A stretch of 48,703 nucleotides of DNA from an uncultured Cytophagaceae bacterium (lineage in GTDB: Bacteria; Bacteroidota; Bacteroidia; Cytophagales; Spirosomataceae): the NCBI GenBank assembly GCA_903933935.1, contig CAIZMB010000044.1:1-48703 (forward strand), read 5' to 3'. The notes beneath the pieces are model-generated. The model worked only from the letters and a program-made list of their open reading frames with translations. It was not told where the DNA came from and did not search any database. A program made the translations under genes and the position numbers. Shown in pieces: positions 4,429 to 19,074 of this stretch; the first letter of the stretch is position 1, and each line of letters begins with the position of its first letter.

Positions 4429-5097
4429 ATGCTAATTAACGAAATACGCGTGTTGGTTAAAAAAGAAATCCAAATGGAATGGCGGCAGAAATACGCAATT
4501 CATGGATTACTCTTGTATTTAGCCTCCACTATATTTGTATGTTATTTATCTTTCAAAGCCAAACAGCAAGCGATTAATCCCATCACCTGGAATACTTTGT
4601 TTTGGCTAATTATATTATTTATGGCCGTCAATGCCATCGGAAAAAGTTTCACGCAAGAATCCAAACAGCGCAATATATTTTATTATTCAATCGTAAGCCC
4701 AGAAGCGGTCATCTACTCAAAGATATTTTACAATTCCCTTGTGATGATCGGTATTTCGTTTATCGGCATTTTATTTTATTCTTGGGTCATGGGCAATCCC
4801 GTTGGTAATTTACCTTTGTATCTTCTCTCATTAATCTTGGGTGCCATCGGTTTTTCGGCAACACTAACAATGGTCGCAGGAATAGCTGCACAAGGAGAAA
4901 ATTCAGCCACATTAATGTCGGTACTTAGTTTTCCCATTATTATTCCACTATTATTAATTTTACTTAAACTCTCAAAAAGTGCGATGGATGGAATATCCAT
5001 GCAGGAGAATTGGGATGAAATGGCTACTTTGGCCTCTTTAGATGTAATTGTTATTGTATTATCAGGAATTTTATTTCCCTATATATGGAGACATTAA
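4429..5097 (+). CDS. ccmB: Haem exporter membrane protein CcmB
   Basis: CcmB is the membrane subunit of the CcmAB ABC transporter, which with CcmC loads haem onto CcmE during system I cytochrome c maturation. The 222-residue protein has about six hydrophobic segments and the family start (EIRVLVKKEIQMEWRQK) together with the FTQESKQRNI block near residue 75. It is the first gene of a rightward run ccmB-C-D-E-F. The partner ATPase gene ccmA is not next to it nor recognisable elsewhere in the window. The last 13 bases overlap ccmC, which suggests translational coupling. Confidence 0.9.
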   Translation: MLINEIRVLVKKEIQMEWRQKYAIHGLLLYLASTIFVCYLSFKAKQQAINPITWNTLFWLIILFMAVNAIGKSFTQESKQRNIFYYSIVSPEAVIYSKIFYNSLVMIGISFIGILFYSWVMGNPVGNLPLYLLSLILGAIGFSATLTMVAGIAAQGENSATLMSVLSFPIIIPLLLILLKLSKSAMDGISMQENWDEMATLASLDVIVIVLSGILFPYIWRH

Positions 5098-5759
5098 AAA
5101 AGAATTATTGGAAAATAGCCTGTATGCTGCTTTTGATCTATACGATTTGGGCAGGATTTATGGGGAAGGTGCCCCGGCAAGCCATTTTAAATGAAACCGT
5201 GAGAAATCTATACTTTCACGTAACCATGTGGTTTACCATGATTTTCTTATTAGGAACTTCCGTGTACCATTCGATTCAATACCTTCGAAAATCAGATATC
5301 AAAAGTGACCTTATCTCAAATGCCTATGTTGAGACCGGTTTGGTTTTTGCCACTTTAGGTCTGGTGACAGGAAGTCTTTGGGCTAAATTTACGTGGGGTG
5401 ATTGGTGGACCAACGACCCTAAATTAAATTCGGTTGCGATCGGACTTTTAATTTATTTAGCCTACGGTTTAGTACGTTCATCCATGCCAGATGAACAGCA
5501 AAAAGCGAGAATATCGAATGTTTATAATATTTTTGCCTTTGTCATTTTCATGATTTTGATTTGGATATTGCCCCGTATGACAGATTCGCTACATCCAGGA
5601 AATGGAGGGAATCCCGGATTTTCAAAATACGATTTAGATTCCAATATGCGCTTGGTCTTTTATCCAGCGATTATTGCTTGGACTATATTAGGCTATTGGA
5701 TCGCAAATCTTAGAATTCGCATAAAAAAATTAGAACACATAACATCAGAAAACGAATAG
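5085..5759 (+). CDS. ccmC: Haem-handling protein CcmC
   Basis: CcmC belongs to the haem-handling protein family and attaches haem to CcmE at the outer face of the inner membrane. The 224-residue product has six predicted membrane segments. The tryptophan-rich loop is at about 96-117 (WAKFTWGDWW, then TNDPKL); the final W of the canonical WxWD is Asn here. Two candidate axial histidines are present, H45 and H170 in the periplasmic loops (NLYFHVT and DSLHPGNG). The start overlaps ccmB by 13 bases; the ccmD-like gene begins two bases after the stop. The reading is firm from the WWD region and gene order. Confidence 0.93.
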   Translation: METLKKNYWKIACMLLLIYTIWAGFMGKVPRQAILNETVRNLYFHVTMWFTMIFLLGTSVYHSIQYLRKSDIKSDLISNAYVETGLVFATLGLVTGSLWAKFTWGDWWTNDPKLNSVAIGLLIYLAYGLVRSSMPDEQQKARISNVYNIFAFVIFMILIWILPRMTDSLHPGNGGNPGFSKYDLDSNMRLVFYPAIIAWTILGYWIANLRIRIKKLEHITSENE

Positions 5760-5761
5760 AT

Positions 5762-5980
5762 ATGAAATTTTCAAACACTTTATTGATTCTTTTAGTTAGC
5801 AGTTTTACTGGGATGGCCCAACAAGCCGACATCGAAATGGCGGATCAATTCCGTGCCGATGGGAAAATATATGTGGTCATTGCAGTAGTTTTATTAATTC
5901 TCGTGGGTCTTTTTATCTATCTTTTCAACTTGGGCAATAAAATTTCCCGACTAGAAAAAGAGATTACTAAGAAAGTTTAA
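5762..5980 (+). CDS. ccmD: CcmD-like small membrane protein
   Basis: Seventy-two residue protein with a short signal-like N-terminus ending near GMAQQ, one strong membrane segment (about 38-56, VVIAVVLLILVGLFIYL) and a charged tail with a short heptad-like stretch (ISRLEKEI). Size, topology and position between ccmC and ccmE fit CcmD, which helps release holo-CcmE from the CcmABC complex. CcmD sequences are poorly conserved, so the symbol rests mainly on gene order. Coding is tight: two bases after ccmC and one base before ccmE. Confidence 0.75.
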   Translation: MKFSNTLLILLVSSFTGMAQQADIEMADQFRADGKIYVVIAVVLLILVGLFIYLFNLGNKISRLEKEITKKV

Positions 5981-5981
5981 T

Positions 5982-6425
5982 ATGAAAAAAACACATATCA
6001 TTGGGTTAATTTTAGTGGCCATTGCCATCGGAATTATTTTAATTACGACGGGCGACGCGAGTACCTATGTGGGCTTTGATGAAGCGGAAAGGATATCGAA
6101 ATCCGACCCATCCCAAAAAGTACATGTCGTAGGAAAACTTAAAAAAGACGCTCAAGGAAAAATCATAGGTATGATATTCAATCCTGCCTTAGATGCAAAC
6201 CGACTAGAGTTTACGGTGGAAGATAGTTTAGGTCGTGAAAATCAGGTCATTTATGCTGCTCCAAAACCTCAGGATTTCGAAAAATCCGAAAAAATTGTTT
6301 TGGTCGGAAGCATGAAAGCAGACAAGATATTTTATTGCGACAAAATTCTTTTAAAATGCCCATCCAAATATCAGGAGGGTAAAATTTCTGCAGATTCAAG
6401 TGCTTCATTTGAAGTGAAAAAATAA
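5982..6425 (+). CDS. ccmE: Haem chaperone CcmE, CxxxY type
   Basis: Periplasmic haem chaperone, 147 residues with one N-terminal membrane anchor (about 5-22) and an OB-fold domain. In the E. coli protein haem binds covalently to His in an HxxxY motif. Here the aligned position is cysteine: C126-P-S-K-Y130. CxxxY CcmE variants are known from archaea and some bacteria and define a modified system I. The rest is typical (GKLKKDAQGK, FTVEDSLG, VLVGSMKADKIF). It sits between the ccmD-like gene and ccmF with one to two base spacings, inside one operon. Confidence 0.93.
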   Translation: MKKTHIIGLILVAIAIGIILITTGDASTYVGFDEAERISKSDPSQKVHVVGKLKKDAQGKIIGMIFNPALDANRLEFTVEDSLGRENQVIYAAPKPQDFEKSEKIVLVGSMKADKIFYCDKILLKCPSKYQEGKISADSSASFEVKK

Positions 6426-6427
6426 AT

Positions 6428-7876
6428 ATGATACACGAAAATATTGGCACTACGGGTCATTTAATGGTAATTGCGTCCTTTGTAACTGCCGCACTAGCAA
6501 CATTTTCTTATTTCAAGGCAACTCAGGCAAGCGATGAGCTTTCTGAAAATGATTGGAAAAAAACAGCAAGAACCTTATTTATCATTCATTTATTTTTAGT
6601 GATCGGCGTGGCCTCAAGCCTTTTCGTCATTATTTATAACCACTATTTTGAATACCATTACGCCTTCACGCATTCATCGTTAGCACTTCCCACCATGTTC
6701 ATGATTTCATGTTATTGGGAAGGCCAAGAGGGTTCATTTTTACTATGGATCTTCTGGCAAGCAATTTTGGGTGTGATTCTAATGATCAAAAATCCCAAAT
6801 GGGAATCTCCAGTAATGACCGTTTTTGCTTTAGTGCAAACGTTTTTGACCTCCATGATTTTAGGTGTCATTATTCCATGGATCGATTTAAAAATTGGATC
6901 ATCTCCCTTTCTTTTGTTGAGAGAGGCGCAGCCCGACTTACCCGTATGGAGTTTACAGCCTAATTTTATTCCAAAAGATGGACGTGGCCTAAATCCATTA
7001 TTGCAGAATTATTGGATGGTCATTCACCCACCTACACTCTTTTTAGGATTTGCCTTGACACTCGTTCCTTTTGCCTATTTAATTGCAGGTCTTTGGAAAA
7101 ATAAGTTGACCGAGTGGATAAAACCTGCATTACCCTGGGCAGCTTTTTCAGGAGCTATTTTAGGGATTGGAATTACCATGGGTGCCTATTGGGCCTATGA
7201 AACTTTGAATTTTGGCGGATACTGGAATTGGGATCCAGTAGAAAATGCCTCTTTTGTTCCTTGGCTCGTTTTAATAGGAGCCATTCACACCATGATTGCC
7301 TACCGAAACTCAAGCGCAGCTCTCAAAACTTCCATTATTTTGGTCATCGCGACCTTTATATTAGTCCTTTATTCTACTTTTTTAAATCGGTCAGGGGTGC
7401 TAGGAAATGCTTCCGTTCACTCATTTACAGATTTAGGTCTTTCGGGCCAACTCCTTATTTACATGTTTACGTTTTTACTGGGGGCCATTATTTTAGCGGC
7501 TTATCGATGGAAAAATTTACCTAAGGATGAAAAAGAGATTGGCATTTACCACAAGGAATTTTGGATTTTTGTTGGAGCTTCTGTGTTAGCTTTATCGGCG
7601 TTCCAACTCATTTTTACGACTTCCATTCCTGTATATAACAAAATTGCAGAAGCCTTTGGCATGGTTTCAAATATGGCTTTGCCTGCTGACCAAGTTGCAC
7701 ATTACAGTAAAATTCAAATTTGGATATTCATAGCCGTTGCCGTTTTAAGTGGAATTGGCCAATATGTTTGGTGGGGAAAATTAAAACAATCCACTTCATT
7801 TAAGCCACTTTACTCTTCACTTTTGAGTTCAGTTTTGTTAACCGTAATTGTCATTAATTTCGAAAAGGTATATTAA
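6428..7876 (+). CDS. ccmF: CcmF haem lyase, N-terminal part (ends at an in-frame TAA)
   Basis: CcmF transfers haem from CcmE to apocytochrome c. This 482-residue part holds most of the catalytic membrane domain: H200 in VIHPPTLFLGF, the WWD motif WNWDPVENASFVPWL at 266-280, and the second histidine region NASVHSFTDLGL near 328-338. About 12 hydrophobic segments are visible. It stops at TAA 7874-7876. The same frame stays open afterwards and continues the protein without a gap (IPYIALLWSGLF), ending at 8977; the joined frame would have 849 codons, close to full-length CcmF-type proteins in this phylum. A nonsense mutation or a sequence error is the simplest reading; a true split gene is possible. 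Confidence 0.85.
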   Translation: MIHENIGTTGHLMVIASFVTAALATFSYFKATQASDELSENDWKKTARTLFIIHLFLVIGVASSLFVIIYNHYFEYHYAFTHSSLALPTMFMISCYWEGQEGSFLLWIFWQAILGVILMIKNPKWESPVMTVFALVQTFLTSMILGVIIPWIDLKIGSSPFLLLREAQPDLPVWSLQPNFIPKDGRGLNPLLQNYWMVIHPPTLFLGFALTLVPFAYLIAGLWKNKLTEWIKPALPWAAFSGAILGIGITMGAYWAYETLNFGGYWNWDPVENASFVPWLVLIGAIHTMIAYRNSSAALKTSIILVIATFILVLYSTFLNRSGVLGNASVHSFTDLGLSGQLLIYMFTFLLGAIILAAYRWKNLPKDEKEIGIYHKEFWIFVGASVLALSAFQLIFTTSIPVYNKIAEAFGMVSNMALPADQVAHYSKIQIWIFIAVAVLSGIGQYVWWGKLKQSTSFKPLYSSLLSSVLLTVIVINFEKVY

Positions 7877-7891
7877 ATTCCATACATCGCT

Positions 7892-8977
7892 TTGTTATGG
7901 AGTGGCCTTTTTTCTTTAGTCGCAAATGGACAAATATTGTGGTTTTTAACGAAGCAAAAGTTCTCCATTGCCGGTGGCGCTCTATCCCATGTAGGTCTTG
8001 CTATCATGCTGATTGGTGTTTTATTTTCTTCGGGATATTCTAAAGTTGTTTCACTCAATCGATCTGGCTTTGCTATCTCTAATAAAGTTGAGCAATTCAC
8101 CAAAGATGACAACAAAGAAAATAAGGAAAATCTGCCACTTTGGTTAGGCCAAGGGGCACAAATGCAGGATTATCTAGTTACTTATAAAGGCAGAAAAATT
8201 GAATTGCGTGGAAAGCCAGGATATTTTAATCGCAAGGATTTTGACATTATTGAAGGTGATTTTCATGCAGTTGCATTAAAAGATATTGAAAAAGAAGGGC
8301 AATCCATTGCTAAAAAAGGAGATACGCTAACGGTGGAGCCTGAAAATAATTACTATGAATTAGAATTTAAAAACGCAGAAGGCAAAATTGTATCCCTGTT
8401 TCCTCGTTGGCAAATGAATCCCAAAATGGGAACCGCTATTTCCCCAGATGTGAAACATGCTTGGGATCACGACATTTATACCTACGTTTCATTAGATCCA
8501 CGCCTTGCCGCAGAGGCTGGCTCCGAAAAACAATGGAGTCAAACCGTAAATGCCACGGTGTCCATCGGAGATACATTATTCTTAAATGATTTTGTAGCTG
8601 TTTTAATGGATGTTACTCGTGTCACTAACGTGGAAAATGTAGTATTAGGTCCAAATGATGCAGCAGTTCGTGCTAACTTTAATGTTTTAGGGAAGAATTT
8701 TCAGCAGTTCCAACTAGCTCCTACGTTTATTATCAAAGATAGAATGGTGGCTATGCCTGCATTTGAAAGTGAAGAAACGGGGATAAAAATTAAGTTTACC
8801 GCGATTAATCCACAAACACAGGAATTTAGCTTTTCTTACAATACAACCCAACAAGATTTAATTATCATTAAAGCGATAGAGAAGCCCTATATAAATTTAG
8901 TTTGGGTAGGTTCAATTTTGATATTTATTGGCTTATTTGTCTCCACATTTAGGAGAACTGAAAAAATGATTGCCTAA
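7892..8977 (+). CDS. ccmF: CcmF haem lyase, C-terminal part (same frame, after the stop)
   Basis: Continuation of ccmF in the same reading frame as 6428-7876. The first possible start is TTG at 7892, but the open frame begins right after the TAA, and the residues before the TTG (IPYIA) continue a membrane segment, so TTG looks like an internal Leu codon rather than a real start. The part contains two N-terminal membrane helices (LWSGLFSLVANGQILWF; GGALSHVGLAIMLIGVLF), a large periplasmic domain of about 260 residues, and a final membrane helix (INLVWVGSILIFIGLFVS), as at the C-terminus of CcmF. If not translated, haem ligation would depend on another CcmF copy or on readthrough. Confidence 0.7.
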   Translation: MLWSGLFSLVANGQILWFLTKQKFSIAGGALSHVGLAIMLIGVLFSSGYSKVVSLNRSGFAISNKVEQFTKDDNKENKENLPLWLGQGAQMQDYLVTYKGRKIELRGKPGYFNRKDFDIIEGDFHAVALKDIEKEGQSIAKKGDTLTVEPENNYYELEFKNAEGKIVSLFPRWQMNPKMGTAISPDVKHAWDHDIYTYVSLDPRLAAEAGSEKQWSQTVNATVSIGDTLFLNDFVAVLMDVTRVTNVENVVLGPNDAAVRANFNVLGKNFQQFQLAPTFIIKDRMVAMPAFESEETGIKIKFTAINPQTQEFSFSYNTTQQDLIIIKAIEKPYINLVWVGSILIFIGLFVSTFRRTEKMIA

Positions 8978-19060: not shown

Positions 19061-19074
19061 AATAAAAAATATAT

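Follow-up and report, generated by a model that had tools for sequence, protein, structure and literature searches.

Plant mitochondria make CcmF in pieces, as described in the portions of PMC3884852 and PMC7139807 available to us. The CcmFN and CcmFC proteins, with further fissions in Brassicaceae, Allium and Trifolium, represent N-terminal and C-terminal parts of the haem lyase. In Marchantia paleacea, the available text of PMC7139807 describes a fission of ccmFc that is due to a one-base lesion, occurs in one sequence and is absent from congeners, and its authors urge re-examination of this fission as a possible sequencing error. Among papers listed for split or broken ccmF, one set was mostly plant mitochondrial and the others comprised reviews, archaeal and unrelated work; a printed bacterial case is possible. 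The closest intact counterparts are System I CcmF proteins from Aquirufa and further members of the Cytophagales.

We examined an interrupted ccmF in a 48,703-nucleotide stretch of a draft genome of an uncultured Cytophagaceae bacterium (assembly GCA_903933935.1, contig CAIZMB010000044.1), referred to as the window. The window ccmF showed approximately 99 % protein identity to its nearest relatives and carried the same invariant histidines. Unlike the intact System I genes, it has an in-frame stop at codon 483. Similar to the plant mitochondrial genes, the interruption leaves an N-terminal and a C-terminal part; unlike them, it comes down to one base in a single draft genome of a bacterium and was not seen in relatives, and a separate start of the second part is hypothetical. 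The window and Marchantia cases are both one-base lesions, the latter being a mitochondrial one-base deletion. We consider it likely (probability about 0.85) that the gene is an ordinary ccmF of System I, present in single copy in a freshwater Aquirufa-type genome, with a private one-base nonsense difference that arose either as an error or minority variant in the draft consensus or through a very recent mutation.

In the window, ccmF comes after ccmB, ccmC, a small ccmD-like open reading frame and ccmE. The order was identical in five close genomes, from which stretches were compared out of 24 same-genus genomes. The small open reading frame between ccmC and ccmE has a signal-like start. The features are as follows:

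4429 to 5097, plus strand: ccmB, haem exporter membrane subunit (Pfam CcmB PF03379, E 3.4e-11)
5085 to 5759, plus strand: ccmC, WWD-family haem handling protein (Pfam Cytochrom_C_asm, E 8.8e-20; NCBIfam ccmC match below its cut-off)
5762 to 5980, plus strand: putative ccmD, a 72-aa open reading frame with one hydrophobic stretch, named by position only
5982 to 6425, plus strand: ccmE, haem chaperone (Pfam CcmE, E 5.8e-12)
6428 to 7876, plus strand: first part of ccmF (482 aa), holding the WWD region as well as His200, His287 and His331
7874 to 7876, plus strand: in-frame TAA, a sense codon in 108 aligned rows from other loci
7877 to 8977, plus strand: second part of ccmF, 366 codons before its own stop, carrying the C-terminal domain and His521
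7892 to 7894, plus strand: TTG, the first start-type codon in frame past the TAA, a candidate restart site

Translation of 6428-8977 gave one internal stop only, the TAA at 7874-7876, and a terminal stop at 8975-8977. The TAA is codon 483 of 849, with 482 codons preceding it, and the open reading frames on either side span 6428-7876 and 7892-8977. When the 854-aa ccmF frame of the nearest relative was aligned to the window gene, the alignment was full length and in a single frame, with no frameshift and with the sole stop at the relative's position 488. An earlier reading made from the sequence only had described one unshifted frame broken by a single TAA, with TTG as the first available start past it, and both translation and alignment agreed with that description. 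Past the stop, the nearest in-frame ATG, GTG or TTG is TTG 7892, whose first base lies 16 bases beyond the final base of the stop. Its codon was variable among relatives (for example TTG, TTA or CTA), so TTG 7892 is not a conserved start.

Both parts retain the domains expected of CcmF. The WWD-type domain was recognised in the first part (Pfam Cytochrom_C_asm PF01578, E 1.3e-26) and the C-terminal domain in the second (Pfam CcmF_C PF16327, E 1.3e-9); the single uninterrupted frame that also characterises CcmF is broken by the TAA at codon 483. Five histidines were invariant in 27 aligned relatives (alignment A1, 27 of the 110 loci L001-L110): H54, H200, H287 and H331 in the first part and H521 in the second. 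H200, H287, H331 and H521 are the putative four histidines of CcmF, two periplasmic and two membrane, an assignment that draws on general background and on the available portion of PMC10663686. The same portion of PMC10663686 describes the CcmF membrane haem as held between histidines of TM7 and TM14. In alignment with the solved structure 6zmq of CcmF, H521 matched a histidine; it is presumably the TM14 histidine, and the first part alone would therefore probably be without one haem ligand. The sequence-only reading had assigned the WWD motif and the histidines to the first part and the C-terminal domain to the second; this holds for the WWD motif, H54, H200, H287, H331 and CcmF_C but not for H521, which lies in the second part.

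To place the stop among relatives, we aligned the column at 7874-7876 across a combined set of loci, one source of which was a contig collection with 80 of 594 relatives kept. There were 111 hits, three of which did not span the column (the window locus's own two pieces and fragment L024). A sense codon was present in 108/108 spanning rows from other loci, some genomes being represented twice (by handle and by contig). The eight nearest rows, from six genomes at 96-99 % identity, have glutamate at this column; other members of the genus have threonine, and more distant relatives vary. The TAA is thus one base from the codon of the nearest relatives and at a non-conserved position.

Searches of whole genomes gave a similar result. 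A ccmF was found in 37 of 39 genomes searched, own genome included, and 34 of the 36 other matched genomes carried a full single frame of at least 826 aa, the remaining two being cut at contig ends. The genus appears to be Aquirufa, as the match in same-genus genome G005 and locus L035 of Aquirufa rosea share their contig coordinates. Of 24 other genomes in this genus, 21 had one frame of 851-864 aa, G003 and G004 had contig-end pieces, and G011, which is 84 % complete, had no match. In G003 an 82 % identical piece on C303 is accompanied by another CcmF piece, located where a contig begins (G003:C92:5-226, 70 % identical), perhaps reflecting a mixed bin. At the level of the order, 266 of 291 genomes matched, again counting the own genome, and 25 did not; in the best 150 of the 266 matches there were 149 frames of at least 838 aa, and the sole exception was the own genome. 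A split shared by the lineage, as in CcmFN and CcmFC, was thus absent from 36 other genomes, 108 rows and 149 of the best 150 order matches. Among relatives with a visible frame, the stop is private to its own genome. The earlier suggestion of a true split, taken as a conserved one, found no counterpart in those relatives, two genomes being cut at contig ends.

Outside the best 150 order matches, the top E-value was weaker in G200 (two matches, large contigs), G103, G143, G185 and G106, each of which had at least two CcmF matches. Weak CcmF matches only were obtained in G109 and G155. The neighbours of these genomes have a single strong match. In these seven genomes ccmF could be contig-cut, broken or divergent, and broken or split genes are possible in some distant relatives among the 116 matches beyond the best 150. 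Because the close relatives are clear, those 116 matches leave the odds of error, mutation and fission unchanged.

The position of the break was assessed on a structure model for relative L031, whose CcmF is intact, built with 27 sequences (mean pLDDT 68, pTM 0.58; pLDDT 75 for residues 471-480 and 70 for residues 481-490). In this model, residue 483 ends a four-residue turn, 480-483, between helices 459-479 and 484-509. The break would therefore be topologically mild, within a model of middling confidence. A variable position in a predicted turn is where a harmless fission would be expected, and in this respect the model speaks against a private error or recent mutation. If fission had occurred, ribosomes would terminate at 7876 and reinitiate at TTG 7892, 16 bases on, and CcmFN-like and CcmFC-like proteins would assemble into a working lyase. 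Such an arrangement has a precedent in plant CcmF, functional in pieces according to the portions of PMC3884852 and PMC7139807 available. Against this, the split is absent from relatives with a visible frame, the TTG stands at a codon that varies among them, and a start there would drop the first residues of the predicted second helix. We regard working fission as unlikely. The more specific proposal, that a free-living bacterium has split CcmF by one base change in a helix turn and is seen at the first step of fission with the pieces still together, is slightly more doubtful again.

To determine whether the window as a whole was of poor quality, its genes were compared with those of two close genomes. 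The comparison covered 34 window genes with 12,765 codons for G017 and 40 with 15,377 codons for G010. In both sets ccmF was the only gene with a stop inside its coding part, and no frameshifts were found. Several candidates for a second broken gene were rejected: the stop just upstream of gene 41-802 and the stop at 19063 each precede the start codon of an intact gene, and the other flagged frames, which either belonged to stretches further upstream within stop-to-stop frames or were short and nested in larger genes, were absent from the non-overlapping set. The freedom of the other compared genes from base errors and frameshifts counts mildly against a poor consensus. The comparison also bears on readthrough, in which a suppressor tRNA or a special context at the TAA would yield one full-length CcmF: a cell reading through TAA might show other interrupted frames, and none was seen in either set of genes. 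Nor was a TAA-reading anticodon present among the 26 tRNA genes found, a set that is incomplete (tRNAs for Ala, Ile, Asn and Pro are absent). The sequence-only reading had allowed for readthrough, which these results leave unsupported.

Selection was then compared on the two sides of the stop. Against G017, dN/dS was 0.027 for the first part of ccmF and 0.010 for the second. Among seven close sequences, changes private to the own genome numbered seven silent and one replacement before the stop and 7/0 after it, the stop itself excluded. The corresponding silent/replacement counts, before and then after the stop, were 5/0 and 5/0 in G017, 14/0 and 11/0 in G014, and 11/0 and 7/3 in G010. Both parts look constrained, and nothing in these small counts points to relaxed selection. 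The absence of relaxation in the second part is compatible with fission, and the same constraint fits a product spanning the stop; even so, readthrough is the least probable of the explanations considered. The DNA identity of ccmF to G017 was 95.5 % (6428-8974), compared with approximately 92.5-93 % in the surrounding window, perhaps through local recombination or constraint.

Finally, we examined whether the organism could do without CcmF. The own genome, which is 98.87 % complete, contains one ccmF, and it is possible that a gene was missed. Its only two Cytochrom_C_asm matches are the window ccmF and ccmC, and neither a second ccmF nor ResB or another System II replacement was found in it. 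These searches gave no support to a duplicate ccmF or a System II substitute as an explanation, and the search for a second copy proposed by the sequence-only reading returned none. Cytochrome c domain matches number 22, all free of internal stops, and the genome encodes two haem-copper oxidases. One is of the cbb3 type, a COX1-FixO fusion adjoining a FixP-like gene; the other is of the aa3 type, with COX2 beside a gene set including ActD, NrfD and two cytochrome c proteins, which constitutes alternative complex III. Both of these routes to oxygen require c-type cytochromes, and both oxidases appear to depend on them. No bd oxidase was found in the own genome. Without CcmF, aerobic respiration should therefore fail, and with one ccmF, no ResB, no bd oxidase and two c-dependent oxidases a long-standing null is implausible.

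These data weigh against the view that ccmF is an established pseudogene in a lineage that abandoned cytochrome c maturation. Such a view would account for the broken frame and the failure to find a second ccmF, and it gains from the CcmH search: no Pfam match to CcmH was found anywhere in the own genome, despite the presence of ccmB, ccmC, ccmE and ccmF. The apocytochrome-handling partner of CcmF thus seems to be unrecognised or absent, and with no CcmH recognised the partner set differs from the textbook one. Pseudogene formation is nevertheless very improbable, given the 22 uninterrupted cytochrome c domain matches, the open reading frames of ccmB, ccmC and ccmE, the lack of decay after the stop and the lack of a bd oxidase. 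The same apparent dependence on c-type cytochromes is in line with fission, which would preserve function.

The earlier option of a nonsense mutation or sequence error fits the intact relatives, the lack of a second ccmF and the lack of any other broken gene among those compared in the window. As to the source of the TAA, a draft consensus error or minority variant is the leading candidate, with somewhat better than an even chance; a real, very young mutation comes second and is a distinctly weaker possibility. If the mutation is real, it would be so recent that no decay has followed. If it is real and not rescued, the cell would make a 482-residue CcmF without His521 and the C-terminal domain, and haem attachment to c-type cytochromes should fail as a consequence.

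The finding is an ordinary one. Its main lesson is one of caution: when a draft genome seems to carry a broken essential gene, the reads should be consulted before cytochrome c is taken to be lost. Should the stop prove to be fixed in living cells that make c-type cytochromes, the locus would serve as a natural experiment on the ease with which CcmF functions in two pieces.
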